From the NCBI RefSeq assembly GCF_030246885.1, contig NZ_CP126739.1, forward strand, positions 248,001 to 312,000: a stretch of 64,000 nt of DNA, in the 5' to 3' direction. Positions 23,039 to 50,475 of the stretch are shown one piece after another; positions within the stretch are counted from its first letter, which is position 1; the number at the start of each line of letters is the position of its first letter. The stretch is from Microbacterium sp. zg-B185 (GTDB taxonomy: Bacteria > Actinomycetota > Actinomycetes > Actinomycetales > Microbacteriaceae). The translations under genes and the position numbers were made by a program. The notes under the pieces were generated by a model. That model worked only from the letters and a program-made list of their open reading frames with translations. It did not search any database and was not told the DNA's origin.

Positions 23039-24160
23039 ATGACGCAGGACAACTCTCCGACAGTAAATCAGCCGCTTCGTGGCATTCGAGTCATCGAGTT
23101 CGAAGGGCTGGGCGTGATCCCCTACGTGGGGATGCTGCTCGCCGACCTCGGCGCTTCCGTTGTCCGAGTCGCACGAGTAGCGGCTCCAGATGTCCTCTCG
23201 GATGGGCCTGCCCGCATCGATCCTGCATTCGACTTCACCTCCCGAGGGAGGCTGGTGTGGCGTCTCAATCTGAAGAAGGACGATCGAGCCGAGCTTCAAG
23301 GACTGCTCAGGTGTGCTGACGTCCTCCTGGAGGGCTATCGCCCTGGGGTCATGGAACGGCTGTCGTTGGGGCCGACTGACGTGTTCGCTCTGAATCGCAG
23401 GATCATTTACTCCCGATTGACCGGTCTGCCCCGCCGGCTTGACTCCAGCCGCGCTCCGGTACATGACATCAACGCGCTCGCATTATCCGGTGCGTTGCAC
23501 GCGCTGGGTTCGCCAGGTCGCGCGCCGCGACTGCCGATGAACTTCGTCGCGGACTACGGCGGTGGCTCATTGGTCGGCGTCGCGGTCTGCGCAGCACTGT
23601 CGCAGCGGAGCGGCCCCATGGAGGATCGGATTCTCGATCTCTCCATTCTCGGAACCCTCTCGACCCTCCTGACTGGCTACTTCGGGCTCACGGGGCAGGG
23701 GACCATTCAGTCGCCCGGCACCAGCTACCTGGATGGAGCGGCCCCCTTCTATGGGACTTATGGGACCAGCGATGGTCGGTTTCTGGCAGTCGGCGCGATG
23801 GAAGCGCACTTTTATGCGAATTTCCTAAGTGCACTCGGGCTGACGATCGGCGACGTAGGCGAACAAAACGATGCCGCATGTTGGCCGTCTGGACGGGCTG
23901 TCATTGCGAAGGTAATCGAATCCCGGACGCTGGAGCACTGGATCGCTCGTTACCGAGACGTGGAGGCCTGTGTGTCGCCGGTCCTAACACCATCGGAAGC
24001 AGCGGTGCAGGATCCGATGAGGTCGACGCTCGCGGACGTCGGATCCTGGGTTCAACCGCTGCCATTGCTGGGTGGAGCGATGCCGACCCCCGCGAAGTAC
24101 GTCTCAGAGGAGGAGATCTCTCACGTGAGGTCTCAATGGACACGCCAGTTATCGCAGTGA
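23039..24160 (+). CDS. Alpha-methylacyl-CoA racemase-like CaiB/BaiF family protein
   Basis: This 373-residue protein of the class III CoA-transferase superfamily looks closer to alpha-methylacyl-CoA racemases than to transferases. The racemase base pair is visible: His in the motif VHDINALALSGALHALG (the GHDINY site) and Asp in MNFVADYGGGSLVG. The N-terminal Rossmann-like segment (GIRVIEFEGLGVIPYVGMLLADLGA) is standard. Racemases invert the 2-methyl centre so that acyl-CoA dehydrogenases can act. The RLTG-x-G motif is altered (RLTGLPRRLD). An AGGAG lies upstream of ATG 23039. It is the first gene of the catabolic island and is followed by a 214-base gap. Confidence 0.8.
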   Translation: MTQDNSPTVNQPLRGIRVIEFEGLGVIPYVGMLLADLGASVVRVARVAAPDVLSDGPARIDPAFDFTSRGRLVWRLNLKKDDRAELQGLLRCADVLLEGYRPGVMERLSLGPTDVFALNRRIIYSRLTGLPRRLDSSRAPVHDINALALSGALHALGSPGRAPRLPMNFVADYGGGSLVGVAVCAALSQRSGPMEDRILDLSILGTLSTLLTGYFGLTGQGTIQSPGTSYLDGAAPFYGTYGTSDGRFLAVGAMEAHFYANFLSALGLTIGDVGEQNDAACWPSGRAVIAKVIESRTLEHWIARYRDVEACVSPVLTPSEAAVQDPMRSTLADVGSWVQPLPLLGGAMPTPAKYVSEEEISHVRSQWTRQLSQ

Positions 24161-24374
24161 TATCGGTTGGCCCTGCGCCGGACATGAGGGCGGATAGCAC
24201 GGTCGCCGTGCCGCGATTCAGGAGAACTCACAAAACCGGGGGGTCGGACCACGTTATTTGACCAAGGCGGGCTCGCGCTGCCGACTTTAGGCTGACGGCA
24301 GGTCGGGGAGCAGCGTGCCTGCCCGGACATGTTGAGCCCGTCGCCCCGCATATCTCTCATGGAGAGGACCTCTG

Positions 24375-25556
24375 ATGACCGCAGCTGAGATCGCACCATC
24401 CCTTGCGACGACACCGATGCCAGGTGCCTTGCAGGTTCGAGTTAATGCCCTCGGCAAGCGATTCCGACGTCGCAAAGACGTCGTGCAGGTCCTCCAGGAC
24501 GTATCAATCGACATCGCCAAGGGTGAATTCCTCGTGCTCCTCGGTCCGAGCGGCTGCGGGAAGACCACGTTGCTCCGATGCCTGGTGGGCTTGGAGCAGC
24601 CGGATGAGGGGACGATCGAACTGCGCGGCGAGAGGGTGGTGGATGCAGACCGCAACCGATATACACCGCCGAATCGTCGTGATGTCGCCATGGTGTTCCA
24701 GGACTACGCGCTGTGGCCGCACATGACCGTCAGTAAGAACGTGGCTTACCCCCTCAAGGCGCGGCGGATGCGTGATGCGCTGAAATCCGGAAGGGTTGCC
24801 GAGGCGCTCCGTGTGGTGCAGTGCGAGGATCTCGCCGATCGCTATCCACCGGAGCTGAGCGGAGGGCAGCAGCAGCGCGTCTCCCTGGCGAGGGCTCTCG
24901 CGTCGCACCCGAGCCTGCTCCTGCTCGATGAACCCCTTAGCAATCTTGATGTTCTCCTTCGGGTCGAACTCCGCGCGCAGTTGCGGCTCCTGCATATGGA
25001 ACTGGGCTTCACAGCCGTGCATGTGACTCACGACCAAGAAGAAGCGCTCGCTCTCGGTACGAGAGTCGCCGTTATGAACAAGGGCCGAATCGAGCAGGTG
25101 GGACCGCCTCAAGAGGTCTGGAGCGCGCCCGCGACGGAGTACGTCGCGGATTTCCTGGGGGCCCGCAACAGATTGACGGCTTCCATCGACGATTCCGGTC
25201 GTGGGGAAATCCTCGGGCAACCCTTCGCGACTATCTTCGAACGCCGATCGGCAGGCGAGTTCGTCGGCCGGGCGCGTGACCACCATTTGACGATCCGATC
25301 GAGGGAGGGCTCCGAGCGTGAGGGAGAAGTGGCCTGGCTCTCGGGCGCCCGACTCGTTGAAATACTCCCTGGAGGCGAGTCCAGCGAGTGCGTCGTAGAC
25401 GTCGCCGGCCGGCGGTTGTTCGTAAAAACCCCCAACTCGGACATCACATTTCGAGCGGGAGACACCGTAGACGTCGGCGTGCATCTCGATGAGGTCTTCT
25501 GGTACGAGAACGACCGCCTCATTCCGTCGCGCGATGTGAGAGGGCGGACCTCGTGA
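24375..25556 (+). CDS. ABC transporter ATP-binding protein, FbpC/PotA type
   Basis: This 393-residue ATPase energises import by the adjoining permease. Walker A is GPSGCGKTT (57-65), followed by a Q-loop (MVFQDYALWPH), signature LSGGQQQRVSLARA (about 165) and Walker B LLLLDEPLSNLD (about 187). The switch histidine is in VTHDQEEA, and a C-terminal TOBE-like regulatory domain spans about residues 250-385. It is the first gene of a three-gene importer operon. Its TGA overlaps the permease GTG (GTGA). FbpC-type ATPases serve iron, polyamine, sulfonate, phosphonate or carboxylate importers, so the substrate is not set by this subunit. Confidence 0.93.
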   Translation: MTAAEIAPSLATTPMPGALQVRVNALGKRFRRRKDVVQVLQDVSIDIAKGEFLVLLGPSGCGKTTLLRCLVGLEQPDEGTIELRGERVVDADRNRYTPPNRRDVAMVFQDYALWPHMTVSKNVAYPLKARRMRDALKSGRVAEALRVVQCEDLADRYPPELSGGQQQRVSLARALASHPSLLLLDEPLSNLDVLLRVELRAQLRLLHMELGFTAVHVTHDQEEALALGTRVAVMNKGRIEQVGPPQEVWSAPATEYVADFLGARNRLTASIDDSGRGEILGQPFATIFERRSAGEFVGRARDHHLTIRSREGSEREGEVAWLSGARLVEILPGGESSECVVDVAGRRLFVKTPNSDITFRAGDTVDVGVHLDEVFWYENDRLIPSRDVRGRTS

Positions 25557-27292
25557 CGGACGTCACCGAGCTCCCGAGTGCCTCGGCGCCACCCGGTTTG
25601 CAATCCCGCTCGCGCGGACCGCGGTCTGCGGGCAGCCTCCGACGCCAGCTCGGTTGGATAGCTCTGACTGTCGTCGTCATGATTGCGGTGGCGATTCCGA
25701 TCGTCCCGCTGCTGGTACGAGCCTTCGCGGACGATGCGGCAGGTTTCCGCACTCTGCTCGCGATGCCTGATCTGGGCAGCGTGCTCTGGATGACGGTGAT
25801 ACTCGGAGTGGGCGCGGCCGTTGTCGCGATGTTCCTGGGCGTCACGCTGGCTCTGTGCGTCCGAGCGATTGCACCCCGAACTCGCAGGTATCTCTCCGCG
25901 CTTCCGGTGCTGCCGATGGTGATCCCTAACGTGGCACATGTCATCGGCTTCGTCTTCCTCCTCTCCCCGGAGAACGGGTACCTGAACGTGGCACTCCGGA
26001 GTCTCTTCGGAAATGAGGGGTCCTCCGGCCCGTTCAATGTCTACTCGCCCGAGGGAATCGTCCTGTACACGGGACTCAATCTGACGGCAATCGTCTACCT
26101 CTTCGTCTACACAGGGCTCCGCAACCTGGGCACCGGATACTCCCTGGCTGCGCGAGTCAACGGCGCGGGAGGCGTGCGAACGCTACTCACGGTGACATTG
26201 CCGTTGCTGAGGCCCGTCCTCGTCTACGCGGGGAGCGTAGCGCTCCTTCTTTCACTCGGACAGTTCACCGGTCCGCTGATCCTAGGCCGCAGAGAAGGCG
26301 TCAGCGTGATCACGACGAAAATGTTCAACGCCACTCTCCAGTATCCGATCGACTACTCCTTCATCTCCGCGATGGGCTTCCCTCTTGTGTTGGTCGCCCT
26401 GGTCCTGGTTGTGTTCCAGCGTCGGTTCATTGGCCAGCAGAATCGCTTCGTAGGTCGGGTCGACGCAATGGAGTCGAGCTCGAAGAATCGACTTGCCCGG
26501 GCCCTGTCGATCACGATCGTGATCGGGTTCGGAATAGTGTCAGCCGGATTGCCCCTCCTCGCTCTGCTGTTCGTCGCTGTTTCCCCCTTCTGGAGTGGAA
26601 CCGTGAGTCTGGCGACGATGACCTTCCAGAACTTCGCGTTGGCTTTCGAGAACGAGGTCTTCATCAGCTCGATCTGGACGAGCATCGCCGTGTCGGGGGT
26701 GGCCGTCCTCCTGGTGATCCCCCTCGGGCTGTTCATAGCGCTCGGCATCCAAAATCGAGCGCGTCTGTGGGCACCGATCCCTGTCGTGCTCGACACGATC
26801 GCCAACATTCCGCTGAGCATGCCGGCGGCTCTGCTCGGATTCGGGTACCTGTTCGTCTTTACGTCTCCCGGTCTCGCGCTATACGGCACGCCGGCGAGCT
26901 TCATCCTCGCCTACATCACGCTGATGATCCCGTACTCCGTGCGCTATCAACTGGCGACTCTGGTGGCGCTGGGCCATCAGACAGTCGATGCTTCGCGGGT
27001 GAGCGGTGCCGGACATATCCGTACACTCCTCCAGATCATCCTTCCGCTCTCCCGAGCAGGCATCGCTTCGTCTGCCGCGATCATGTTCATTCTGCTCATT
27101 CAGGAGTTCGGGGTCTCTCTCTTGCTTCGATCGCGAGATGTGAACGTGATGTCGGTGGTCCTGTTCGAGCAGTACGACACCGGGTCGTACCCGATCGTCG
27201 CAGTCATGGCACTCGTTATGACCGCGATCACCGCAGCCGGAGTGGGAATCGCTCTGCTGTTCGGAGGCAGCCGTGCCCTCGAGAGACTCTGA
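25553..27292 (+). CDS. ABC transporter permease, fused double domain (FbpB type)
   Basis: This 579-residue membrane protein consists of two BinB-type permease halves, each with about six helices. The EAA-like loops are recognisable as YSLAARVNGAGGVRTLLTVT in the first half and VDASRVSGAGHIRTLLQIIL in the second. These contact the ATPase. A single polypeptide serving as both pores is typical of the iron(III)/2-aminoethylphosphonate/organic-anion FbpABC group. It is translationally coupled to the ATPase gene and followed 72 bases later by the binding protein. Confidence 0.92.
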   Translation: MTDVTELPSASAPPGLQSRSRGPRSAGSLRRQLGWIALTVVVMIAVAIPIVPLLVRAFADDAAGFRTLLAMPDLGSVLWMTVILGVGAAVVAMFLGVTLALCVRAIAPRTRRYLSALPVLPMVIPNVAHVIGFVFLLSPENGYLNVALRSLFGNEGSSGPFNVYSPEGIVLYTGLNLTAIVYLFVYTGLRNLGTGYSLAARVNGAGGVRTLLTVTLPLLRPVLVYAGSVALLLSLGQFTGPLILGRREGVSVITTKMFNATLQYPIDYSFISAMGFPLVLVALVLVVFQRRFIGQQNRFVGRVDAMESSSKNRLARALSITIVIGFGIVSAGLPLLALLFVAVSPFWSGTVSLATMTFQNFALAFENEVFISSIWTSIAVSGVAVLLVIPLGLFIALGIQNRARLWAPIPVVLDTIANIPLSMPAALLGFGYLFVFTSPGLALYGTPASFILAYITLMIPYSVRYQLATLVALGHQTVDASRVSGAGHIRTLLQIILPLSRAGIASSAAIMFILLIQEFGVSLLLRSRDVNVMSVVLFEQYDTGSYPIVAVMALVMTAITAAGVGIALLFGGSRALERL

Positions 27293-27364
27293 TCAGGATC
27301 TGTGGCCGCCAGCATTCCCGTGCCGTGTCAACCGATGCGGCAAACGATACGAAGGAGAGATGAA

Positions 27365-28435
27365 GTGAAGAGACGAACGTACGCAACTCGCGCCGCGGCT
27401 GTAGCCGTCGGGGCATTCGCGCTCATTCTGGCCGGATGCGCGAGCGCCGCGCCTGAGTCCGCTACGGCGTCACCTGATTCCGGCGCTGACGGCGCACCGT
27501 CCTGGGAGTCGGTGGTCGAAAAGGCTCGCGCGGAGGGAACGGTGACGCTTTACAGTCACGCGGTCCCCACGATGCTGGACTCGCTCGTCGAAGCGTTCGC
27601 GCTCGAGTACCCAGACATCAAGGTCGAGTATGTTCGAGGGGCGACGGAATTGCCCGCGCGAGTCGATGCCGAGATCGCCGGCAAGACCCCCGGCGCAGAC
27701 ATCGTCATGTTCGCAGGCGACAACTGGATGCTGGCCAACGCCGAACACCTCGCCCCGGTCGGCGACCTGCCCTCCCTGGCGGAATGGCCGGAGGACGCCT
27801 GGGTGATCGATGGCGTCGCCCCCATCACCGCCATTGTTCCGCTGAGCATCATCGCCTGGAACACCCAGATCTTTCCGGACGGTTTCGAGGAGTGGAGCGA
27901 TCTGCTCTCCTCAGATCTGGACGGTCGCCTGGGAACACGCGATGGCATCGGTGCCACCGAAGCACTCTTCTACCAGTTCTTCGAGGACAACCAGGGTGAG
28001 GACTATCTCCCGAGTCTCGCTGCACAAAACCCGCGGTTCTACCCCTCGGCGGTGCCGATGGCGCAGGCCGTAGCCTCGGGAGAGATCGGAGTCGCCATCT
28101 ACTCGGTGGTGCCGACCCTGAAGGAGTTGCAAGATCAGGGTGCACCGATCGACTACATCCTTCCGCAGGAAGTGATCGCCAATCCCTATCCGGCGGCGAT
28201 TCTGAAGAAGTCGGAGAACCAGAACGCAGCTCAGGTGTTCATGGACTTCTGGTTGTCTGAGAAGGGTCAGACCGCCTTCAACACGAACGAATCCGGTGTC
28301 AGCGCGCTCCCTGACATAGACGGCTCTCTCGACTTGGCAGGGCATGACCTGACCTACTTCGACTCCGCTCGCGCGACGCCCGATTTCATCAGCGAGTGGG
28401 ACGCGAAGTTCCGTGAGATCTTCCACGGCAACTGA
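27365..28435 (+). CDS. Lipoprotein solute-binding protein of the ABC importer
   Basis: This 356-residue protein has an N-terminal lipoprotein signal (FALILAGC; lipid-anchored Cys) followed by a Ser/Ala linker. The type II periplasmic-binding fold begins at WESVVEKARAEGTVTLYSHA. It belongs to the FbpA/AfuA-like family. The adjacent tyrosines that bind ferric iron in true FbpA are not evident, so an organic anion is more likely; the catabolic neighbourhood supports this. GTG 27365 is chosen because GGAGAG lies about eight bases upstream and the signal peptide starts there. A strong hairpin follows the gene. Confidence 0.88.
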   Translation: MKRRTYATRAAAVAVGAFALILAGCASAAPESATASPDSGADGAPSWESVVEKARAEGTVTLYSHAVPTMLDSLVEAFALEYPDIKVEYVRGATELPARVDAEIAGKTPGADIVMFAGDNWMLANAEHLAPVGDLPSLAEWPEDAWVIDGVAPITAIVPLSIIAWNTQIFPDGFEEWSDLLSSDLDGRLGTRDGIGATEALFYQFFEDNQGEDYLPSLAAQNPRFYPSAVPMAQAVASGEIGVAIYSVVPTLKELQDQGAPIDYILPQEVIANPYPAAILKKSENQNAAQVFMDFWLSEKGQTAFNTNESGVSALPDIDGSLDLAGHDLTYFDSARATPDFISEWDAKFREIFHGN

Positions 28436-28659: not shown

Positions 28660-29697
28660 GTGAAAGCGCTGCGCTACATGGGTGCCGGGGTGACCCAGCT
28701 CGTAGATCTCCCCGTTCCGGAGCCCGGGAGAGGTCAGGTGCGAATCCGCGTCGCCGCGGCCGGCATCTGCCACAGCGATGTCCGCATGATCGAGGGGACG
28801 TCTGTCGGGGCGGTGGACGCCTTCGCGCCCTTCACTCTCGGCCACGAGATAAGCGGGGTCGTGGATGAGTTGGGTGCGGACGTCGATCCAGCCATGCTCG
28901 GAATGGAAGTCGCGGTGTACGGTCCCGAGGGCTGCCTCGTGTGCATGAGCTGCACCGAGGGAAAATGGAACTACTGCGACCGCCGAACGCCGAACGCCGC
29001 AGCAGGTGTCGGAATCGGGCGCGACGGCGGACTGGCTGAGTATGTCGTGGTGGATCCGCGGCGACTCGTAGCGGCGCGCGGCGTCGATATGGCAGCAGCC
29101 GCTGTGCTCACCGACGCGGGCCTGACGTCCCACCACGCGGTGTCGACGCTGGATTGGAAGGCAGCCGGACCGCGCACCGCCGTCGTCCTCGGCGTGGGGG
29201 GGCTGGGCCATCTGGCTGTGCAGGCTCTCGCTTTCGAGGCTGATGTAACAGTCATTGCAGTCGATGGCCGTCCAGAGGCGAGCGACCTGGCGATGCGGTC
29301 CGGGGCCCACGCATTCGCTCAACCTCATGAATTGGAAGACGTCGTCGGGGAACTGACGCGCGGCCGCGGCGTCGCGGCTGTGCTCGATTTCGTTGGCTCC
29401 TCTTCTACGATGCTCCTCGGTGAAAGCGTCCTGGGCTCGCTAGGCGAGTTCGTGCTCGTCGGGAGCGCGGGCGGTGGCCTCCAGCTGAGCAAAGGCCGTG
29501 TCGGACCCCGCCGCGGTCTCTCTTATCGGGTGCCGATCTGGGGCAGCCTCGGGGAGCTCAGCGACGTGCTCGATCGAGCGCGCCTTGGTCGGCTTCGGCC
29601 GGAGATGCATTTTATCTCCCTCGTGGAGGCGGAACAGGGGATGCGCGATCTGGCAGCGGGCACGGTCTCCGGACGCCTGGTAGTCACCGAATTCTGA
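28660..29697 (+). CDS. Zinc-dependent alcohol dehydrogenase (MDR superfamily)
   Basis: This 345-residue enzyme oxidises or reduces an alcohol/aldehyde pair with NAD(P). Catalytic zinc ligands are visible in AGICHSDVR and LGHEISG. The structural zinc lobe is complete with four cysteines (GCLVCMSCTEGKWNYC). The nucleotide-binding motif is VVLGVGGLGHLAVQ, and the following acidic position (VIAVDGRP) suggests NAD. The GTG start has a GAGGA ribosome site. It lies 17 bases before a second MDR dehydrogenase and probably shares its transcript. Substrate is unknown; a primary alcohol or hydroxyacyl intermediate of the island is likely. Confidence 0.88.
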   Translation: MKALRYMGAGVTQLVDLPVPEPGRGQVRIRVAAAGICHSDVRMIEGTSVGAVDAFAPFTLGHEISGVVDELGADVDPAMLGMEVAVYGPEGCLVCMSCTEGKWNYCDRRTPNAAAGVGIGRDGGLAEYVVVDPRRLVAARGVDMAAAAVLTDAGLTSHHAVSTLDWKAAGPRTAVVLGVGGLGHLAVQALAFEADVTVIAVDGRPEASDLAMRSGAHAFAQPHELEDVVGELTRGRGVAAVLDFVGSSSTMLLGESVLGSLGEFVLVGSAGGGLQLSKGRVGPRRGLSYRVPIWGSLGELSDVLDRARLGRLRPEMHFISLVEAEQGMRDLAAGTVSGRLVVTEF

Positions 29698-29714: not shown

Positions 29715-30752
29715 ATGCGTGCAACCTTTCTCTTTGGTGCCGGCGATGTCCGCGTGATCGACGTCCCGGATCCGAAGCTGCGAGATGCCACCGACGCGAT
29801 CGTTCGGGTGGTGCTCACGTGCGTTTGCGGTTCGGATATCACCCAGTTCCGCACGATGCCGGACGCTGCGATCGGTAGATCGATGGGGCATGAATTCGTC
29901 GGCGTCGTCGAGGAGATCGGCGCTCACGTGCGAACCCTGAACGTGGGCGATTTCGTCATCGCGCCACTTGTGTGGGCGGACGGGGTATGCGAGTTCTGCC
30001 TGGCAGGGCTGCACACCTCCTGCCGCCGCGGCGGTCGGTGGAACGACGAGAATTGCGGCGGTTGCCAGGCAGAACTCGTGCGGGTGCCTTTCGCCGACGG
30101 AACTCTGGTTCGCGCTGAGGTGGACGAGTCGTCCGCTCTCGTACCCTCGCTGCTCGCTGTGTCCGATGTCTACGGTACCGGGTATCATGCCGCTCACATG
30201 GCTCGAGTGGGCCCATCGACCTCCGTGTGCGTGATCGGCGACGGCGCCGTGGGCTTGATGGCCGTCATGTCCGCACGCCAACTCGGCGCGGAGCGGATCA
30301 TCCTCATGACTGGTCGGCAGGGGCGCGCGGCGCTGGGTCGTTCGTTCGGCGCGTCGGATATTGTTGCGTCCCGAGGCGACGAGGCCGTCTCAACAGTGGC
30401 AGAGCTGACCGGCGGCGTGGGCACGAACGTCGTCATTGAAGCCGTTGGAAGTACTGCAGCCTTCGAGCAGGCGCTCGGATTGGTCCGCGACGGCGGGACG
30501 ATCAGTCAGATCGGCGTTCCGAGCAGCCCGGGTCATCTCGAGAGCTTCACGAACGCGTTCACCCGGAATCTCACACTCACAGGCGGTCTCGCGCCGACAC
30601 GCGCGTATACGGAGAGGCTGATGGCGCACATTCTCGACGGGGGAGCGGACCCTGGCCGGGTGTTTGATCTGGAGGTGCCGCTCGATGATATTGGAGAGGG
30701 TTACAGGGCCATGGATGACCGTCGCGCGATGAAGGCCGCGGTACGGCCATGA
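29715..30752 (+). CDS. Zinc-dependent alcohol dehydrogenase, second copy
   Basis: This 345-residue MDR protein is only distantly related to its neighbour. Catalytic zinc ligands lie in CVCGSDITQ and MGHEFVG. The structural zinc lobe has three of the usual four cysteines (DGVCEFCLAGLHTSC), with Asp in the first position, as in some threonine/sorbitol-type members. The nucleotide motif is VCVIGDGAVGLMAV. A GGAGG lies seven bases before ATG 29715. The tandem pair suggests two sequential or alternative dehydrogenation steps, or two chain-length or stereo-specific forms. Confidence 0.87.
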   Translation: MRATFLFGAGDVRVIDVPDPKLRDATDAIVRVVLTCVCGSDITQFRTMPDAAIGRSMGHEFVGVVEEIGAHVRTLNVGDFVIAPLVWADGVCEFCLAGLHTSCRRGGRWNDENCGGCQAELVRVPFADGTLVRAEVDESSALVPSLLAVSDVYGTGYHAAHMARVGPSTSVCVIGDGAVGLMAVMSARQLGAERIILMTGRQGRAALGRSFGASDIVASRGDEAVSTVAELTGGVGTNVVIEAVGSTAAFEQALGLVRDGGTISQIGVPSSPGHLESFTNAFTRNLTLTGGLAPTRAYTERLMAHILDGGADPGRVFDLEVPLDDIGEGYRAMDDRRAMKAAVRP

Positions 30753-35161: not shown

Positions 35162-35189
35162 ACACAGTTGCGGCGGAGGGAAGGGACAC

Positions 35190-35864: not shown

Positions 35865-35887
35865 GCCGATGGGTGCTGAGCCGGGGC

Positions 35888-39604: not shown

Positions 39605-40059
39605 TATGCCGCGCTCGCCGCGGGCTCCTCGGGGGAGGACTCGACCACTGTGAATAGCGGGACGTTCTGTCCGGAAGGGCTACGGGCGAAGATCACCTGC
39701 ACGGGCGTGCCGAAGTCGACTGCTTCTGGATCACCGCCCACGATCTTGCTGAGCATCTTCACTCCGCCCTCGAGTTCGACCAGGCCTACGACGTACGGCA
39801 CATCCTCGTTGTACTCGGGCGTGGCATTGCGATAGACCACGGAGAAGGTCCAGACCGTTCCGCGACCCGACGACGGGAGGTCCTCGATTTCGCTCGACCA
39901 GCAGTGAGAGCAATGCGCGCGGTAGTAATACTGCGTGCGAGCACACGCTGCGCACTTCTGCAAGAGCAGGACACCGGCGTTCGCGGCTTTCCAGTAGGGC
40001 TCCGTTTCAGGAGTTGTCGTGGGGAGCCATCCGGTCCACTCCATTTGCTGGTTCGTCAT
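39604..40059 (-). CDS. DUF35 OB-fold/zinc-ribbon acyl-CoA-binding partner
   Basis: This 151-residue protein has a rubredoxin-like zinc ribbon (C36-x2-C39, C50-x2-C53) followed by an OB fold (GRGTVWTFSVVYRNATPEYN, VPYVVGLVELEGG, GTPVQVIF). DUF35 proteins pair with thiolase-superfamily enzymes and form the acyl-CoA-binding half of complexes such as Ltp2-ChsH2 retro-aldolase in sterol side-chain breakdown or BbsA-BbsB. It lies two bases behind the Cys-less thiolase gene, so the two very probably form a complex. ATG 40059 starts the conserved region. Confidence 0.9.
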   Translation of the reverse strand: MTNQQMEWTGWLPTTTPETEPYWKAANAGVLLLQKCAACARTQYYYRAHCSHCWSSEIEDLPSSGRGTVWTFSVVYRNATPEYNEDVPYVVGLVELEGGVKMLSKIVGGDPEAVDFGTPVQVIFARSPSGQNVPLFTVVESSPEEPAASAA

Positions 40060-40061
40060 CG

Positions 40062-42900: not shown

Positions 42901-44070
42901 TCAGTACGATCGGGGCAGACCGAGACCGGCCTGAGCTATGTGATTGAGCATCATGTGCGGGGTGATCGGCGAAAGGCGCAGCACACGCATCTCGCGGGCG
43001 TAGCGCTCCACCTGACCTTCGCGGGCATATCCCATCCCGCCGAGGGTCTGAACCGCAGCATCACAGGCCTGCCAGCCGGCGTCCACCGCCAAAAAGTACG
43101 CCTCATTGCCCTCCGTGCGCAGCGCGACGCCGTTGTCGTACGCGCTCATCGCGGCCATCAGGTAGGCCCATGCGGCATCCAGTCGTGTGGCAGCTTCCGC
43201 GAGGGGGTGGCTGATCGCCTGATTCGCGCCGATCGGGCGATCGAAGACGACTCGGTCCTTCGCGAAGGTCACAGCACGGGCGAGCGCTGCACGGCCGACC
43301 CCGATTGCCTCGGCCGACATCACGAGACGCTCCCGGTTGAGGGCATCCAGCAGATATCGGAAGCCCTGACCCTCTTCCCCGATCAACCGGGCGGAAGGGA
43401 CGAAAGCGTCATCGAAGAACACTTCGCACGTCTGGATGGCGTTCATGCCATGCTTCTCGATCGAGCGGATCTCGATGCCTTGCGCACTCTTGTAATCGAC
43501 GAGGAAGAGGCTCAACCCGGAGAATCGGGATGACGAGTCGGCGGACGACGTACGGGCGATCACGAGTGCGACGTCGGCGACATCGGCCTGCGTCGTGTAG
43601 ATCTTCTGGCCGGTGAGCAAGTACCCGCCGTCTACGGCACGAGCACTGGTGGCGATCTTCGACGTGTCCAGACCAGCATTGGGTTCTGTCACGGAGAAGG
43701 CGATCTTGATCTCTCCGGAGGCCAGCGCGGGGAGGAATTGCTGCTTGAGCTCTTCGGAGCCGAACTTGATGATCGGTTCAGCCGCGAACATCGGGTTGTG
43801 CGTGACGACGCATCCGACTTCGGCCGCACCGGATGCTCCGATCTCGTGAAGCATCACGGCGCCCTGACGAGTGCCCTGGCCACCCCCGCCATACTCCTCA
43901 GGAATGGTGAGACCCAGCCAGCCGCCTTGCGCCATCGCGTCGAAGAACGCGTCGGGGTAGGTCTTCGTCCTTTCGCACTCAGACCAATACGCGTCGTCGA
44001 ACGCCGCGCATCGCTCGCGGACCGCCTGCGCGATCCCGTCATCGAGTTCGTCGTACTGGAAGATGGTCAT
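42901..44070 (-). CDS. Acyl-CoA dehydrogenase
   Basis: This 389-residue flavoprotein has FAD motifs IAFSVTEPNAGLDTS and GQKIYTTQADVADVALVIAR, and a C-terminal QTLGGMGYAREGQVERYARE. The usual catalytic glutamate of short-chain enzymes (YEGT) is replaced by RLSPITPHMMLN, so the base must lie elsewhere, as in isovaleryl- or long-chain-type enzymes, or the enzyme handles an unusual substrate. It follows the aminotransferase gene after a 186-base gap and precedes the ligase gene. The expected step is introduction of the alpha-beta double bond into the ligase product. Confidence 0.9.
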   Translation of the reverse strand: MTIFQYDELDDGIAQAVRERCAAFDDAYWSECERTKTYPDAFFDAMAQGGWLGLTIPEEYGGGGQGTRQGAVMLHEIGASGAAEVGCVVTHNPMFAAEPIIKFGSEELKQQFLPALASGEIKIAFSVTEPNAGLDTSKIATSARAVDGGYLLTGQKIYTTQADVADVALVIARTSSADSSSRFSGLSLFLVDYKSAQGIEIRSIEKHGMNAIQTCEVFFDDAFVPSARLIGEEGQGFRYLLDALNRERLVMSAEAIGVGRAALARAVTFAKDRVVFDRPIGANQAISHPLAEAATRLDAAWAYLMAAMSAYDNGVALRTEGNEAYFLAVDAGWQACDAAVQTLGGMGYAREGQVERYAREMRVLRLSPITPHMMLNHIAQAGLGLPRSY

Positions 44071-44256: not shown

Positions 44257-45597
44257 TCAATCGGCCAGGGTCATCACGCCTGCGGCGAGTACGTCCAGCG
44301 CATCCTCGAGTAGCTCATCGCCGATCACTAGAGGCGGCAAAAGTCGGATGACGTTGTGATAGGTGCCGGTCGTCAGTGTGAGCACACCGTTGCCGTTCGC
44401 GAAGGCGGCCACCTTCTTCGCCGCAGCTGCATCGGGCTCGAAACCGTCCGGACCGACGAACTCGATCGCGAGCATCGCGCCACGCCCGCGTACTTCGCCG
44501 ATGGCCCCGCCGGATTGGTCGGCGATCTGCTCCAACCGGGGGCGCGCGATCTGCTCGATGCGCCGAGCACGAGCAGGAAGATCATCACGCTCGATGATGT
44601 CGAGTGCGGCCAGCGCCGCGGCGCACGCTACGGGATTGCCCCCGTACGTTCCGCCCAATCCGCCAGCCGGCACGGCATCCATGATCTCTGCGCGACCGGT
44701 GACGGCCGCCAACGGCATGCCGCCGGCGAGAGCCTTCGCTGTTGTGATCAGGTCAGGCACAACGCCTTCGTGGTCGACCGCGAACATACGTCCTGTCCGA
44801 CCGAGCCCGGTCTGGATCTCGTCTGCCACGAAGACGATGTCGTTGGCACGCGCGAAAGCCGCGACCTTCGCCAGATAGCCGGCCGGGGGAACGATGAATC
44901 CGCCCTCTCCTTGGATCGGCTCGATGACGATCGCCGCGACGTTGGAAGCTCCCACTTGAGTCGTCACGATGTCGACGAGCTGTTGGAATGCTTCCTCAGC
45001 GATGTCGACACCAGGGCCGCGCCACCGGAACGGATACGGAGCGGGCACGCGGTAGACCTCTGGGGCGAATGGGCCAAAACCGTCCTTGTAAGGTTCGTTC
45101 TTCGCCGTCATTGTCATGGTGAGAAGGCTGCGGCCGTGGAAAGCGTGGCTCAGAACGATCACCGCGTCTCGTCCTGTGTAGGTCCGCGCGATCTTCACCG
45201 CGTTCTCGACCGCCTCCGCGCCGGTGGAGTAAAGGGCTGTGCGCTTCTCGAAGTCTCCGGGCGTGAGCCGGTTGAGACGTTCGGCCACCTCGACTGCGAG
45301 TTCGTACTGGGTGGACACAAATCCCAGATGAGTGAACTTCGCCGCCTGCTCGCCGATGCGGGCCACGACGTCAGGGTGCGAGGCCCCCACACCGGTGACC
45401 CCGATGCCACTCGCGAGATCGATGATGTGGTTGCCGTCGACATCCACCAGGATGCCGCCGCCGGCATCGGTGACGAAGACCGGCAGCGTGACGCCGAAAC
45501 CGCGCGCGACGGCGGCGTGCCGACGAGCGGAGAGTCGCTGGGATTCGGGTCCGGGCAGGGACGTCTTGAGAATCCTCTTCTGCGTCGGTTGTGTCAT
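44257..45597 (-). CDS. gabT: Class III omega-aminotransferase (4-aminobutyrate/5-aminovalerate type)
   Basis: This 446-residue PLP enzyme moves a terminal amino group from an omega-amino acid to 2-oxoglutarate, giving a semialdehyde. FTHLGFVSTQYELAVEVAER and ALYSTGAEAVENAVKIAR bind PLP phosphate. IVFVADEIQTGLGRTGRMFA holds the PLP Asp, and the Schiff-base Lys lies in TTAKALAGGMPL. The sequence is closest to GabT/DavT types. ATG 45597 has GGAGAT five bases upstream; the longer frame upstream is not family-like. The aldehyde dehydrogenase encoded at 47330-48772 would oxidise the product. GABA itself is only one of several candidate substrates. Confidence 0.88.
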   Translation of the reverse strand: MTQPTQKRILKTSLPGPESQRLSARRHAAVARGFGVTLPVFVTDAGGGILVDVDGNHIIDLASGIGVTGVGASHPDVVARIGEQAAKFTHLGFVSTQYELAVEVAERLNRLTPGDFEKRTALYSTGAEAVENAVKIARTYTGRDAVIVLSHAFHGRSLLTMTMTAKNEPYKDGFGPFAPEVYRVPAPYPFRWRGPGVDIAEEAFQQLVDIVTTQVGASNVAAIVIEPIQGEGGFIVPPAGYLAKVAAFARANDIVFVADEIQTGLGRTGRMFAVDHEGVVPDLITTAKALAGGMPLAAVTGRAEIMDAVPAGGLGGTYGGNPVACAAALAALDIIERDDLPARARRIEQIARPRLEQIADQSGGAIGEVRGRGAMLAIEFVGPDGFEPDAAAAKKVAAFANGNGVLTLTTGTYHNVIRLLPPLVIGDELLEDALDVLAAGVMTLAD

Positions 45598-45748
45598 GGC
45601 ATCTCCTCGGGGCGGGCGTCGATATTCGCGCGTGCGTCTCGAGAAACCTATGGGCCGGCTGGACACGACGTCTTTGGAAAGCCCCCAAGTTATCGCGCGC
45701 ATATTCTCCCGCCGGAGAGTCGAGTCACGCAGAAGTGCGTGCCGCGTT

Positions 45749-46309
45749 CTAGCGATCGTGGGCGAAGACCGCGAGTACGTCGGCCAGAAAGCGGTAATAC
45801 CCGACTAGTGCCGTGATCTCCAGAACTCCGGCCTCCGTCAGCTCGGCGACGCACGAGCCGTACGCGGCGTCGTCTAGGGTTCCCGTGCGCAGAAGCTGGA
45901 GCACGGCGTTCGCGACGACAGTCTCGTCGACGGATGCCGATGGCGGCGGTTCGAGTTCGGCCAACGACACGAGCTCGTCGGCGGTGAGCCCGACGCGGCG
46001 TGCGACAGCCTCGTGAGACCTCACTTCGAACGCGCTCTCGCAGTAGTGCCCGATCAACAGGATCGCCATCTCCCGTGAGCGAGCTGAGAGCCGCCCCTGG
46101 AAGCGGAGAACCGCGCCGAAAGCCTGGATGGCCTCCCCCAGCGGCGGATCCAGGAGCAGCGCATCGAAGGGACCCACCAGCGCGCCCTTCTCGTCTACCA
46201 GTGCGAAGGCGGACTCTGCGGCTCGAGCGCCCGATGCGATCCTCGCGTACAACGCGGCCTGCGCCTGGTCCATGCCCTCCGGTGTGAGCCGTGCCTTGCG
46301 AAAAGTCAT
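45749..46309 (-). CDS. Carboxymuconolactone-decarboxylase/AhpD-like protein
   Basis: This 186-residue alpha-helical protein of the AhpD/CMD superfamily contains SREMAILLIGHYCESAFEVR then SHEAVARRVGLTADELVSLA, and VLQLLRTGTLDDAAYG. The CxxC redox pair of AhpD is absent: only one Cys occurs, in HYCES. It is therefore more like the non-peroxidase subfamily with decarboxylase or unknown hydrolytic roles. It is first in the minus-strand run. ATG 46309 is directly preceded by GGCAGGAG, a ribosome site with very short spacing. Function within the pathway is unknown. Confidence 0.75.
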   Translation of the reverse strand: MTFRKARLTPEGMDQAQAALYARIASGARAAESAFALVDEKGALVGPFDALLLDPPLGEAIQAFGAVLRFQGRLSARSREMAILLIGHYCESAFEVRSHEAVARRVGLTADELVSLAELEPPPSASVDETVVANAVLQLLRTGTLDDAAYGSCVAELTEAGVLEITALVGYYRFLADVLAVFAHDR

Positions 46310-46516
46310 CTCCTGCCTTCCGACGAAGCCTCGTGCGTCGTCCACCACCTAGCCCACCGCGCCGCGAGGCCCAGCGGTATTGCGATTCGCACAACATTCC
46401 GAAGCACTCTTTGCGTCAGGTGAGAGGCCGGCAGGTTCACGAGCCGAATAGCGTGATCGCACGGCGCGCCCGAATCGGTGTTCGCGCGACGTGAGCATCG
46501 ATGAAAGGAACCGCGC

Positions 46517-47302
46517 GTGAGCAGGATTGCACAGCCGCAGATCAGCAAGTCCTGGCTGGGGTTGGACGGCCGACCCGTCCTCGTCGTCGGCGCGGGTGGG
46601 CTCGGTGCCGCGATCACCCATACGCTACGGACGAACGGGGCGCGCGTGGCTCTCCTGGACCTTAGTGCAGAGCGGCTCGAGCAGGTCGCACAGGAACAAG
46701 CAGGGATGCCCGGCGAATTGGTGCAGTACGCGGTCGATCTCACAGTTGCCGGCGACGCGCGGCGTGCCGTCGTCGAGGCGTCCCAGAGGCTCGGCGGGCT
46801 GGAAGGCTTCGTCCACGCTGTCGGCGTCAATGACCGCCGGCCGGTGCTGGACTTGAACGATGACGACTGGTCGCGGCTCATCGACACCAATCTGTCGACG
46901 GCGTTCTGGACAGGCCAAGCCGCGGGACGGACCATGTGCGAGGCGGGCTCGGGAAGGCTGGTTTTCCTGTCTTCCGTCGCGGGTCTGCTCGCCCACCCGA
47001 ACCACAGCATCTATGCGGCATCGAAGGGGGGACTTAATCAGCTAATGCGTTCGATGGCCCGCGAATGGGCTGCGAGGGGTGTGCAGGCCAACGCCGTCGC
47101 TCCGGGATACATCGAAACTCCTCTGACAGCTGGTCACCTCGCGAAGGACGACAACCGTGCCCAATTGGAGTCACTCGTGCCTGCCGGACGTCTGGGCGCT
47201 CCCGACGAGGTGGCTGATCTTGTGGCCTTCCTCCTATCGCCCCGAGCGGCCTTTATCACAGGGCAGGTCGTCTACGTCGACGGCGGCCGATCCCTGGTCT
47301 GA
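46517..47302 (+). CDS. Short-chain dehydrogenase/reductase
   Basis: This 261-residue SDR oxidises a hydroxyl or reduces a keto group with NAD(P). The cofactor motif is [13 protein letters not shown], with DLSAER afterwards favouring NAD. The active site comprises the Asn of [10 protein letters not shown], Ser of FLSSVAG and Tyr/Lys of [18 protein letters not shown] and [12 protein letters not shown] are the standard C-terminal motifs. GTG 46517 has AAGGAA upstream. It is divergent from the CMD-like gene and 27 bases before the aldehyde dehydrogenase gene. It could act on a 3-hydroxyacyl-CoA or on a ring alcohol. Confidence 0.92.
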
Positions 47303-47329
47303 CCGGAACACCGCACAGAGGATTCAGCT

Positions 47330-48772
47330 ATGACCATCCGCAGCAATCACATCGCCGGACGCTGGGTCGAGGGACCCGACGCGGTACCCAACATCAATCC
47401 CTCTGACACCGACGATGTCGTCGGACACTACGCGCGTGCAGACGCGGCACAGGTCTCCGACGCCATCGGCGCGGCCGCAGAGGCCTTCGCCGGCTGGTCG
47501 GTCACTACGGGACAGGCACGCGCCGACATCCTCGAGACCGCAGCTTCAGAGGTGCGGGCGCGCCAAGAAGAGCTGGCTGACCTGTTGGCGCGCGAGGAGG
47601 GCAAGACGATCGGCGAGGCCCGCGGAGAGGTCGACCGAACTGTGCGCGTGATCCGATATCACGCCGCGCAGGCGCTGATGCCCGTCGGCGAGGTCGTCCA
47701 CTCGATCCGACCCGGTGTGAAAATCGACGTGGTTCGCGAGCCGGTCGGAGTGGTGGGTGTCATCACCCCATGGAACTTCCCACTTGCGATCCCGGCGTGG
47801 AAAATCATTCCTGCTCTCGCGTATGGCAACACGGTCGTTTTCAAGCCCGCCGATCTCGTTCCTGCGAGCGCTTGGGAACTCGTGGATATTCTGGTGGGAG
47901 CGGGGCTGCCTGCCGGCGTGCTGAATCTCACGATGGGTCAGGGAAGCGTGGTGGGCGACGCCATCACGCGCGATCCCCGCGTGGCAGCGGTCTCGTTCAC
48001 GGGTTCCGTTCCGACCGGGGCTCGAGTACTGGAGGCGACGCAGAGCCACCAGGCTCGTGTGCAGCTGGAGATGGGTGGCAAGAATCCCCTCATCATCAGC
48101 GACGACGCCGACCTCGAAATCGCGGTCTCGGTTGCCGTGGAGGGCAGCTTCGGTTCCACCGGGCAGCGCTGCACGGCCGCCGAACGCTTCATCGTCGACG
48201 AGAGAATCCATGACGCGTTCGTGGAGGCGCTCACTGTCCGGATGTCGGCGCTGGTGGTTGGCGACGCCCGCGACCCGCGAACGCAGATGGGCCCAGTCGT
48301 CGACGGCCGTCAGCTTGAGCAGAACCAGCTGGCACTCCGACGAGCCGCAGCCGATTCGGGTCAGGTGATCGGTGGCGAACTCGTGGGGGCATCCCGGCCA
48401 GGCTTCTACATGCGACCCGCTGCAGTGATCGGGACCCATCAGGCGGATTGGATCAACACCGAAGAGGTGTTCGGGCCCGTGGTGTCGATCGTAAAGAGCC
48501 GTGATCATGACGAGGCAGTTGCCCTCGCGAATGATACCGAGTTCGGCCTCTCGTCTGGGATCGTCACCACTTCCTTGGCGAAGGCAGCCGATTTCCAGCG
48601 CAGATCCAAGGCCGGGATGGTCATGGTGAACGTGCCGACGGCCGGGGTCGACTACCACGTCCCATTCGGGGGCCGCGCTCGGAGCTCGTACGGACCGCGG
48701 GAGCAGGGCACGTACGCTCGAGAGTTCTACACAACGGTGAAGACCAACTACGTGGCCTGGGGAACAGTCTGA
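47330..48772 (+). CDS. Aldehyde dehydrogenase (semialdehyde dehydrogenase type)
   Basis: This 480-residue enzyme oxidises an aldehyde to an acid with NAD(P). Motifs are ITPWNFPLAIPAWKIIPAL, VSFTGSVPTGARV, the general-base Glu in QLEMGGKNPL and the catalytic Cys in GSTGQRCTAAERF. The C-terminal VDYHVPFGGRARSSYGPREQ is characteristic of the 2-oxoglutarate semialdehyde dehydrogenase subgroup, which also takes succinic and glutaric semialdehyde. This fits oxidation of the aminotransferase product to a dicarboxylic acid. It lies between the SDR and second ligase genes on one transcript. Confidence 0.92.
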   Translation: MTIRSNHIAGRWVEGPDAVPNINPSDTDDVVGHYARADAAQVSDAIGAAAEAFAGWSVTTGQARADILETAASEVRARQEELADLLAREEGKTIGEARGEVDRTVRVIRYHAAQALMPVGEVVHSIRPGVKIDVVREPVGVVGVITPWNFPLAIPAWKIIPALAYGNTVVFKPADLVPASAWELVDILVGAGLPAGVLNLTMGQGSVVGDAITRDPRVAAVSFTGSVPTGARVLEATQSHQARVQLEMGGKNPLIISDDADLEIAVSVAVEGSFGSTGQRCTAAERFIVDERIHDAFVEALTVRMSALVVGDARDPRTQMGPVVDGRQLEQNQLALRRAAADSGQVIGGELVGASRPGFYMRPAAVIGTHQADWINTEEVFGPVVSIVKSRDHDEAVALANDTEFGLSSGIVTTSLAKAADFQRRSKAGMVMVNVPTAGVDYHVPFGGRARSSYGPREQGTYAREFYTTVKTNYVAWGTV

Positions 48773-48852
48773 GCTTGGCAGGCCGCTCGCGCAGTGTGTG
48801 ATAATTCCGTGATCAGACAGTTTGAGCCGCGTTCGCAACCATCCGAACGCGG

Positions 48853-50475
48853 ATGCGAATCGATCTCATAGCAGCAGAGAACGGACGAACTGTGGCGAAC
48901 CTCGCGGAGCTCTTCTATAGGAACGCAAGGCTCAGGGGTGACAGGACGGCGATCCTCATGGGGGGTTGCTCCCTGTCCTATCGCGATCTGTGGGACGAGA
49001 GCACACGTGTCGCCGCACTCCTGCGGAGGTCGGGGGTGACGGTCGGAGATCGGGTGATGATCTTCGCGGACAACTCGCCCGCGCACTTCGTGGTGTACCT
49101 GGCGAGCGCCCGACTGGGCGCGGTGTTCACACCGGCGCACGTCGGGTTCCGCCCGTCCGACCTCGATTACGCGATCGCCAACAGTTCTCCGCGCGTAATC
49201 GTGGGGGATGAGCACTCCGTCCGCGCCCTGGCGAAGTCGGGCGCCCGCATCCAAGTCGGCGCCGCGATCCTTCGGCTGGACGAGTGGCCGGAGGACGAGG
49301 ATTACACGGCGCCAGGTCATCCGGTGGCGGCTTTCCTGGATCTTCCCGCCGACGCGCCGGCTCTCATCACCTATACCTCTGGAAGTACGTCGCGCACCCC
49401 CGCGCCTGTCACGCGGTCGCATGAGACGGAGATCTGGAACGCGGAGACGTACACCGACGTCTGGGACTTCCGCCCTGGGGATCACGTCCTCGTTCCGCTG
49501 CCACTCTCATGGGTGTACGGCCTAACGACCGTGGGCCTGAGCGCGCTGTCTGCCGGATCGACGATCGTCCTGCAGTCCGCTCGTGACGCTGAGCCGTTGC
49601 TGCCCGCCATCCAACGTCACGGGGTAGCAATTCTGGCGGGCACGATGGACATGTACTCACGGATGGTCGGCGAATTGCAGGAGGGGCATTTCGATTTGTC
49701 CTCTCTGCGCCATCTCTACATCGGTGGTGAATCGATCGTGCAGCCGATTGTCGAGCTCGTCGAGCACTTCACCGGCATCCGTCCCTTGCAGGCCTACGCT
49801 GCCACCGAGGTCGCGCCTGTGCTGGCGGTAGATCCGATCCGAGATGCCTCGGCCCCGCGGGGCACCGCAGGTAGAATCCTGGAGGGCAGCGAGATCCGTC
49901 TCGTGGACGCAGACGGAGCGGACGTTCCGGTAGGCGCAGTCGGCGAGGCCTGGTTGAGGGGACGCGGCTCGATGCTCTCCTACTGGCGGGAGCAGTCGCT
50001 GACGGAGATGCGCGTCACCGCCGATGGATGGTATCGGAGCGGAGACTATCTGTGGCGCGATCCAGACGGCTTCTACTTCATGGTTGGTCGAATGGAGGAC
50101 GTGATATTGCGCGAGGGCTCGCCTGTCTCGCTCTCCGAGGTGGAAACCGCGATCGCCGAGCTCCCCGGCATCGAGGACGTCGTCGTGGTCGGCGTCCCAG
50201 ACGACGATTTCGGCGAGGCGCTCATCGCCTTCGTCGTCACAGCAGCGGACCAGCGCCCGTCCGTCGATATCATCTACGAGAATCTCGAGACGCGCATTGC
50301 GCGTGTGAAGGTTCCGCGCGAGATCTACATCATTGATCGGCTGCCGCTCGGCATTACCGGCAAGCGCGACCGTCAACAGCTCAGAGAGATAGCAAGTTCC
50401 GCCGTCTCGGGCGACCGCAGCATCGTGACGATGGCGGAGTGGCTCGCTGAACGCTCGGAGCGCCGACGATCCTGA
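48853..50475 (+). CDS. AMP-forming acyl-CoA ligase paralogue with altered phosphate loop
   Basis: This 540-residue ANL-superfamily protein is clearly paralogous to the ligase at 41327-42877, sharing the segments FTPAHVGF, PLPLSWVYG, TDVWDF and a C-terminal GITGKRDRQ with its lysine. Its phosphate loop reads TYTSGSTSRTPAPVTRSH, where the usual Lys is replaced and one residue is inserted, so activity may be reduced or specialised. GTG at 48892 (VANLAELFYRNA) is a possible alternative start. It is last in the SDR-ALDH-ligase unit, and IS remnants follow directly. It might activate a different intermediate, such as the acid made by the aldehyde dehydrogenase. Confidence 0.87.
   Translation: MRIDLIAAENGRTVANLAELFYRNARLRGDRTAILMGGCSLSYRDLWDESTRVAALLRRSGVTVGDRVMIFADNSPAHFVVYLASARLGAVFTPAHVGFRPSDLDYAIANSSPRVIVGDEHSVRALAKSGARIQVGAAILRLDEWPEDEDYTAPGHPVAAFLDLPADAPALITYTSGSTSRTPAPVTRSHETEIWNAETYTDVWDFRPGDHVLVPLPLSWVYGLTTVGLSALSAGSTIVLQSARDAEPLLPAIQRHGVAILAGTMDMYSRMVGELQEGHFDLSSLRHLYIGGESIVQPIVELVEHFTGIRPLQAYAATEVAPVLAVDPIRDASAPRGTAGRILEGSEIRLVDADGADVPVGAVGEAWLRGRGSMLSYWREQSLTEMRVTADGWYRSGDYLWRDPDGFYFMVGRMEDVILREGSPVSLSEVETAIAELPGIEDVVVVGVPDDDFGEALIAFVVTAADQRPSVDIIYENLETRIARVKVPREIYIIDRLPLGITGKRDRQQLREIASSAVSGDRSIVTMAEWLAERSERRRS

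Follow-up and report, generated by a model that had tools for sequence, protein, structure and literature searches.

BbsB is a real thiolase, and bbs operons, like the locus described here, carry acyl-CoA dehydrogenase and short-chain dehydrogenase (SDR) genes. Two further pairs, Ltp2-ChsH2 and Sal-Shy, join a thiolase-fold protein to a DUF35 partner; in the available part of their description (PMC12329534) the motifs are given as YDHF for Ltp2 and YDCY for Sal, Gly at the Cys position of Sal is named as the reason why thiolysis is impossible, and changing its third motif residue to Ala abolished activity. The gcdR-gcdH-gcoT genes of Pseudomonas putida KT2440 encode an adjacent LysR regulator, glutaryl-CoA dehydrogenase (GCDH) and glutarate-type CoA-transferase (PMC6667623, in excerpt), and lupanine 17-hydroxylase (luh) has been described from P. 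putida (PMC6208669, in excerpt). Here we compare with these systems a catabolic island of 22 genes, located at 23039-50475 of a 64,000-nucleotide stretch (the window, to which coordinates refer unless stated otherwise) that spans positions 248001-312000 of the single-contig 3.57-Mb genome of Microbacterium sp. zg-B185. With close to even confidence, we propose that the island degrades a cyclic-amine carboxylic acid of the lysine-derived (quinolizidine or piperidine) kind, with a glutarate exit reached via an aldolase module. An earlier note on this DNA had claimed a CoA-thioester pathway for a branched or alicyclic (amino) acid, which our analysis supports and sharpens to a cyclic or branched amino acid.

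The thiolase-fold protein and its DUF35 partner

The thiolase-fold protein (40062..41261, minus strand) has Gly87-Gly88 at the place of the nucleophilic Cys. Gly replaces this Cys in all 64 relatives of at least 60% identity that cover the position, and in 114 of 114 among all matches listed. The Tyr of its YDAF motif (Y295) is kept in 70/70 close relatives at the same identity limit and in 120/120 among all matches listed; in these 70 the motif reads YDAF in 67 and YDPF in 3, and His346 is present in 69. With Gly at the Cys position, the protein cannot act as a canonical thiolase. Against known structures it scored 226 bits to 4u4e and a weaker 115 bits to benzoylsuccinyl-CoA thiolase BbsAB (7pxp), which it resembles as a thiolase/DUF35 pair.

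The DUF35 gene (39604..40128, minus strand) overlaps the thiolase gene and encodes a 174-aa product with zf-ChsH2 and OB domains only (PF12172, PF01796), including the C4 zinc ribbon motif; a Pfam scan gave no MaoC hydratase domain on it. Since Gly stands for Cys, the Tyr is kept and a DUF35 partner is present as in Ltp2 and Sal, we read the pair as a putative module for retro-aldol cleavage of a CoA thioester. The resemblance to Ltp2-ChsH2 and Sal-Shy (as far as described in the excerpt of PMC12329534) lies in the YDxF Tyr, the DUF35 partner and the Gly for nucleophilic Cys, the last stated for Sal. The island clade differs from both in its third motif residue, which is Ala (Pro in 3/70) rather than His (Ltp2) or Cys (Sal), and in having a linked amidohydrolase instead of a MaoC hydratase fused to DUF35. 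Because of the Ala, the island protein is filed as aldolase-like, in neither the Ltp2 nor the Sal family; since Ala kills Sal, the acid residue must differ here, with His346 and Cys379 as candidates.

A racemase and an acyl-CoA dehydrogenase together with a Cys-less thiolase/DUF35 pair are reminiscent of the degradation of sterol side chains, and could mark a steroid or terpenoid side-chain pathway with an Ltp2/Sal-like aldolase. We regard this as very improbable, given the deviating YDAF motif, the DUF35 protein without a MaoC hydratase domain, the absence of any steroid-ring gene among the 22, and an aminotransferase and glutarate enzymes that would have no role there.

The linked amidohydrolase

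An Amidohydro_2 family protein (35888..36823, minus strand) is the candidate for a partner enzyme of the aldolase, as a hydratase or a hydrolase. Its gene directly follows that of DUF35 in Salinibacterium and Paraburkholderia sprentiae (see below) and lies 2.8 kb off in the window. For 23 of 36 thiolases (at least 60% identity, contigs of at least 5 kb) an amidohydrolase match was found on a contig of identical length, where 0.07 was expected; six of these 23 contigs are shorter than 9 kb. The count used the best 120 matches per search (120/120 thiolase, 119/120 amidohydrolase and 73/120 rows of the second acyl-CoA dehydrogenase), and the chance figure came from jittering one list of lengths by 3% 2,000 times (mean 0.072, maximum 2). 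The amidohydrolase thus belongs with the aldolase and is linked to it across phyla. Among wider thiolase relatives (52 loci, many of them short, with best segments of at most 40% identity), tblastn at E <= 1e-4 found the amidohydrolase at 0/52 and DUF35 at 21/52; the amidohydrolase link thus seems confined to the close clade.

The presumed metal ligands H7, H9, H163, H197 and D258 are invariant in 45/45 aligned rows, query included. A structure model (pLDDT 95) does not discriminate between relatives that are hydratases, decarboxylases or hydrolases. LigJ is a hydratase within the amidohydrolase superfamily, as the title of its report states. CouO of Rhodococcus jostii RHA1, another member, performs the last, deacetylating step of p-hydroxycinnamate CoA-thioester side-chain removal (excerpt of PMC4737184); likened by description, the two share the superfamily and a CoA-thioester pathway, whereas CouO yields a free acid and the island enzyme is tied to a thiolase-fold protein. 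As no crotonase is encoded near, our first guess for the amidohydrolase is a hydratase, and our second a lactam or amide hydrolase.

Racemase-like protein and second acyl-CoA dehydrogenase

The first CaiB-family protein (23039..24160, plus strand) scored 225 bits to AMACR/MCR structures and 71 bits to the best CoA-transferase-type structure. Its HDIN (at 142) and ADYGGGS (at 171) motifs align with racemase structures, and we take these sites to be the catalytic His and Asp of alpha-methylacyl-CoA racemase (AMACR). The second acyl-CoA dehydrogenase (ACAD2; 42901..44070, minus strand) and 12/12 aligned relatives have Pro (Pro368) where most acyl-CoA dehydrogenases carry the catalytic Glu, and Glu (Glu247) right before an invariant Arg (Arg248), 120 residues earlier than the Pro. 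The Glu247 position is presumably that of the isovaleryl-CoA dehydrogenase base, which suggests a beta-branched substrate for ACAD2. These features would fit an acyl-CoA with a stereocentre at the alpha carbon and a would-be tertiary hydroxyl on the beta carbon; such a hydroxyl would make normal thiolysis impossible, so that retro-aldol cleavage would be needed. In NCBIfam, ACAD2 also matched two models for flavin monooxygenases within the acyl-CoA dehydrogenase superfamily, at just 24-28 bits against cut-offs of 450-850.

Probable 5-aminovalerate/glutarate genes

The first acyl-CoA dehydrogenase (ACAD1; 31731..32927, minus strand) matched the GCDH of PDB 3sf6 at 569.5 bits and carries the YEGT motif; of its ten best PDB matches, nine bear the name (putative) glutaryl-CoA dehydrogenase and the tenth acyl-CoA dehydrogenase. 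This GCDH is 86% identical to that of Salinibacterium and 58% to the genome's own second copy, so it probably arrived with the island. The GCDH gene overlaps that of a CaiB-type CoA-transferase (CaiB2; 32924..34177, minus strand), whose best NCBIfam model is succinate-glutarate CoA-transferase (354 bits, below the cut-off of 750), and a LysR gene adjoins (30807..31712, plus strand; found by Pfam, GcdR-like by position and 79% identical to its Salinibacterium counterpart). The aminotransferase (44257..45702, minus strand), of the gamma-aminobutyrate (GABA)/5-aminovalerate type, exceeds the cut-offs of two curated GABA-transaminase models (NF004714, 673.5 vs 639; TIGR00700, 559.7 vs 506.65). A 3-hydroxyacyl-CoA dehydrogenase (3HCDH; 34280..35161, plus strand; 3HCDH_N and 3HCDH domains) and a semialdehyde dehydrogenase (ALDH; 47330..48772, plus strand), nearest the 2,5-dioxovalerate type at 463.5 bits (cut-off 750), complete the group.

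Aminotransferase, ALDH, CaiB2, GCDH and 3HCDH would lead from 5-aminovalerate through glutarate semialdehyde, glutarate, glutaryl-CoA and crotonyl-CoA to acetoacetyl-CoA, with a crotonase supplied from elsewhere in the genome. About one third of the set (these five and LysR) thus appears to match a known 5-aminovalerate/glutarate route, contrary to the claim that the set fits no single known pathway. With gcdR-gcdH-gcoT of P. putida KT2440 (as given in the excerpt of PMC6667623) it shares adjacent LysR, GCDH and glutarate-type CoA-transferase genes; it differs in that GCDH and transferase are oriented opposite to LysR and in that the set is joined to a CoA-ligase/aldolase module. What may be new sits in the part outside the glutarate route: the Cys-less thiolase, DUF35 and the linked amidohydrolase.

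Related loci in Salinibacterium and Paraburkholderia sprentiae

The search for the same gene set in other Actinobacteria that had been proposed as a check led to Salinibacterium sp. ZJ450 (Microbacteriaceae), where 14 of the 21 island genes tested have reciprocal best hits within 60 kb as a cluster in reshuffled order; a grouping of this extent in one 60-kb stretch is more than chance. The cluster also holds two RedAm-like (imine-reductase-type) genes, one gene each for an amine-oxidase-type protein, a CN-hydrolase and a polysaccharide-deacetylase/allantoinase-like product, a hydantoinase B gene for which caprolactamase beta is the top model (a distant match, 171 bits vs a cut-off of 1000) and an L-2-hydroxyglutarate oxidase (LhgO) over its cut-off. 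We read it as a probable cyclic-amine/lactam toolkit with a glutarate exit. The genes with a RedAm/imine-reductase-like C-terminal domain (L077:10462-11481 and L078:10836-11933) lie one on each side of the aldolase block.

P. sprentiae WSM5005, a bacterium from Lebeckia ambigua nodules, has on its plasmid pl2WSM5005 (pl2) the ligase, thiolase (71% identity), DUF35 and amidohydrolase in a row. After the amidohydrolase, on the same strand bar one hypothetical gene, follow genes for a nitronate-monooxygenase-family protein, LysR, a polysaccharide deacetylase, a Rieske oxygenase, a serine hydrolase, an SDR, an ALDH, two transporters, a pyrroloquinoline quinone (PQQ) dehydrogenase, gabT and another aminotransferase. 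On the other side, past electron-transfer flavoprotein genes and IS66, stand F420 genes, a second PQQ dehydrogenase, pqqABCDE and the glutarate dioxygenase GlaH, about 31 kb from the thiolase. The F420 biosynthesis genes (cofC, cofD, cofE, cofH and npdG; 391-397 kb of the plasmid, L080:280-5870) adjoin the PQQ and alkaloid-type genes. At 310-341 kb there is a second catabolic region, set off by transposases, with a crotonase/3HCDH, a Rieske protein, an LLM oxidoreductase, a maleylacetate reductase, a dioxygenase and a benzoylformate decarboxylase.

Searched at E <= 1e-100, PQQ dehydrogenases occupy two places on pl2, 13 and 18 kb from the ligase/thiolase/DUF35/amidohydrolase block, and the two proteins are 49% identical. 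The one in the thiolase array has 698 aa with CSACH at 612; lupanine hydroxylase has CGACH at 613-617. According to the excerpt of the source of this motif (PMC6208669, 2018), pl2WSM5005 carries a 62% homologue of lupanine 17-hydroxylase (copy unspecified), the next closest after three from Pseudomonas, and Lebeckia is high in lupanine and sparteine. The likeness to luh hence consists in a homologue on the very plasmid that bears the orthologous ligase/aldolase/amidohydrolase block. Quinolizidine and piperidine alkaloids had come up as candidates from the chemistry and the legume hosts before this placement was found.

These loci also bear on whether the island serves one route or two. Its glutarate part could act on lysine, cadaverine or 5-aminovalerate and its ligase/dehydrogenase/aldolase part on an unrelated branched or alicyclic acid, the two merely sharing a mobile element. 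Mobile islands collect cargo, the gene groups of this one lie on both strands with the partner amidohydrolase apart from the aldolase, and GCDH by itself is present in 33 of 118 other genomes sampled from the genus. Two pathways nevertheless seem quite unlikely to us: the aminotransferase immediately precedes ACAD2 and ligase 1 in a head-to-tail series that includes the aldolase, and both halves recur together in Salinibacterium in another order and in P. sprentiae with another glutarate enzyme. The recurrence of a glutarate exit in different form, LhgO in one and GlaH in the other, supports such an exit in the single cyclic-amine route proposed here.

Proposed pathway

In the route that we favour, an ATP-binding cassette (ABC) importer, encoded on the plus strand by genes for an ATPase of the 2-aminoethylphosphonate (2-AEP)/polyamine type (24375..25556; TIGR03265, 310 bits, below the cut-off of 458), a fused permease (25553..27292; two BPD_transp_1 stretches) and a solute-binding protein (27302..28435; SBP_bac families), would take up the substrate. 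Two zinc alcohol dehydrogenases (ADHs) (28660..29697, with ADH_N, ADH_zinc_N and zinc motifs, and 29715..30752, by Pfam; both plus strand) would generate the acid by oxidising a hydroxymethyl or an aldehyde group, and both would suit a hydroxymethyl such as that of lupinine. The thioester would be formed by CoA ligases, of which there are two AMP ligases (ligase 1, 41327..42877, minus strand, by Pfam; ligase 2, 48853..50475, plus strand, by Pfam/NCBIfam, 48% to Salinibacterium), and the AMACR-like protein would epimerise its alpha carbon. If the alpha carbon of the ring acid is next to the carbon that bears the nitrogen, ACAD2 could then introduce an alpha,beta double bond toward that nitrogen-bearing carbon to give an enamine thioester, which addition of water (candidate enzyme: the amidohydrolase) would convert to a carbinolamine. 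A retro-aldol C-C cut by the Cys-less thiolase and DUF35 would open the ring, leaving a lactam or amide and freeing an acyl-CoA; hydrolysis would yield 5-aminovalerate or an N-substituted form, which the GABA-type aminotransferase and ALDH would turn into glutarate, and CaiB2, GCDH and 3HCDH would carry glutarate to acetoacetyl-CoA.

For lupininic acid, the cut would produce 5-(2-oxopiperidinyl)pentanoyl-CoA, from which hydrolysis and N-dealkylation would release 5-aminovalerate and glutarate semialdehyde; by chemical reasoning, these products would supply the aminotransferase, ALDH and GCDH with the compounds that they require. When fed lupanine, P. putida accumulates 6-oxo-octahydroquinolizine-3-carboxylic acid (excerpt of PMC7071741), an acid of a type that could be taken up by a CoA ligase. 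The glutarate half, the missing thiolase nucleophile and the racemase type are, as judged by homology, the predicted fixed points of the route, around which we infer the substrate, the order of steps and the amidohydrolase reaction.

Several observations weigh against this proposal. The SDR and ALDH links are weak (31-35% identity; 34-35% for their two reciprocal best hits in the Salinibacterium stretch), and the racemase, importer, ADHs and metallo-beta-lactamase (MBL)-fold protein are without reciprocal best hits in that stretch. The P. sprentiae locus has oxygenase genes, which the island is without, and no acyl-CoA dehydrogenase is annotated at 353-410 kb of pl2. The Ala at the third motif place may count against a simple Sal-like mechanism. 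Catabolic plasmids gather clusters, so the lupanine link is circumstantial. Finally, the P. sprentiae PQQ gene found no match in the Microbacterium genome or in Salinibacterium (0/2; the query was the pl2 PQQ protein rather than luh, and no positive control was included), a difference from the luh system (excerpt of PMC6208669) that implies another entry step.

The same chemistry might act on another ring, such as a lactam, a piperidine pollutant or drug, or a non-quinolizidine plant alkaloid. Besides the unmatched PQQ gene, the caprolactamase-beta-like, RedAm-like and amine-oxidase-type genes of Salinibacterium speak for such a substrate; the P. sprentiae link, which points specifically to lupanine hydroxylase, speaks against it, and we consider it unlikely. 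In its most specific form, the quinolizidine reading would make the island the first gene set for the lower half of quinolizidine (lupin-type) alkaloid breakdown: CoA activation, racemisation, desaturation, an enoyl-CoA hydratase of the amidohydrolase superfamily, a YDAF retro-aldolase of a third catalytic type that releases a lactam, and a 5-aminovalerate/glutarate exit, as a module moving between Actinobacteria and legume symbionts. Taken as a whole this stays speculative and is somewhat unlikely to hold in every part.

No lupin-alkaloid breakdown gene past the first step, lupanine hydroxylase, was named in the literature searched, a body of partial texts that excluded most subscription papers. 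The island offers candidate genes for the steps after the quinolizidine carboxylic acid, where one strain stops, with three loci to compare, and it draws attention to a putative thiolase-fold aldolase, tied to an amidohydrolase, whose motif differs from those of Ltp2 and Sal. Such enzymes might serve lupin protein debittering and waste-water treatment.

Distribution of the thiolase and the gene set

At E <= 1e-120 the thiolase was found in 0/246 other genomes of the genus and 0/395 others in a phylum sample, with the own genome detected in both searches; further searches, run with no positive control, gave 0/343 in genus sample g91 and 0/351 in family sample f6. The genome samples overlap in part. 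At E <= 1e-40, 13 of 149 other genomes of the family matched, Salinibacterium alone above 45% identity. Thiolase matches in the protein search also came from Streptomyces sp. BH106, an R. opacus plasmid, Microvirga zambiensis and Bradyrhizobium sp. Pear77. The amidohydrolase at E <= 1e-50 was found in 0/148 genomes of g93 and 0/155 of g91 (no positive control), and megablast of the whole set (23.96 kb) against plasmids matched 4 of 72,556 records, each over at most 4% of the query. Housekeeping genes at conserved separate places had been named as a sign against an island; the thiolase, near-absent from sampled relatives, is no such gene, though GCDH alone, at 33/118, is commoner. Nor did the literature searched hold a characterised pathway equal to the whole set.

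Other genes of the island

All 22 island proteins were matched by Pfam and most by NCBIfam, and expected motifs were present in 9/9 proteins inspected. These scans found every gene class named by the earlier note at its place. Its inventory of 21 genes stands, with one gene overlooked: that of a CMD-family protein (45749..46348, minus strand; PF02627; 50% to the Salinibacterium CMD gene adjoining its ACAD2). The claim that no mono- or dioxygenase and no enoyl-CoA hydratase is visible was likewise borne out, as Pfam scans of the 22 proteins gave neither an oxygenase nor a crotonase family; the genome has eight ECH_1 (crotonase) matches, each one outside the window. The remaining genes encode a PucR-type regulator with a PmfR-like N-terminus (37169..38749, plus strand; Pfam/NCBIfam), the MBL-fold hydrolase (38777..39604, minus strand; HHHHDH motif) and the SDR (46517..47302, plus strand; Pfam/NCBIfam). 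Between 3HCDH and the amidohydrolase, 35161-35888 looks non-coding and gives a weak match to HTH_3; it may be a scar left where cargo was joined.

The mobile element

An intact tRNA-Ser(CGA) lies left of the window at G000:C1:227845-227935 of the same genome. Its 3' end with a hairpin recurs right of the island as an attR-like repeat (52825..52908, plus strand; 94% over 85 bp to G000:C1:227909-227993); no whole tRNA was found in the window by ARAGORN. These 85-bp direct repeats delimit an element of ~73 kb that includes the whole window up to the right repeat, with the island at its right end. A tyrosine integrase (Phage_integrase) is encoded near one end, outside the window (G000:C1:229619-230701). 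The left flank of the window holds a conjugation coupling protein TraG/TraD (12588..14456, minus strand; PF12696, PF02534) and one ParA-like gene, a second lying outside the window; no relaxase family matched among 10 left-flank proteins scanned, a subset of the open reading frames there. The island lies just inside an insertion sequence (IS) with an rve transposase and 55-bp inverted ends (80% complementary) at 51277..52669, 1,357 bp of which are 98.9% identical to a second copy in the genome. One relative (G606) keeps the tRNA-Ser and parts of the left flank, and its right-flank match is just 75 bp. GC content at third codon positions is 0.69-0.84 in the island and 0.85-0.88 in three flanking genes (TraG, poxB and one for an alpha/beta hydrolase). 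Even relative to the element that carries it, the cargo thus looks foreign.

The island is best explained as a catabolic module that was acquired horizontally and is carried by an integrative conjugative-type element. The conjugation genes that had been claimed on its left are represented by TraG/TraD and the ParA-like gene, and the IS/tRNA debris on its right by the rve-type IS and the repeated tRNA-Ser(CGA) 3' end; mobility itself is supported by the integrase, the end repeats at tRNA-Ser, the related sets in two other bacteria and the absence of the thiolase from nearly all sampled relatives.

A second tRNA-like 3' end (GTTCAAATCC type) occurs at 51162-51183, 1.67 kb left of the first with the IS in between, possibly reflecting two accreted elements. 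The left part of the element also carries a Zeta-toxin family gene (G000:C1:234846-236264), followed at ~241-246 kb by peptide-type ABC importer genes (ABC ATPase, SBP_bac_5).

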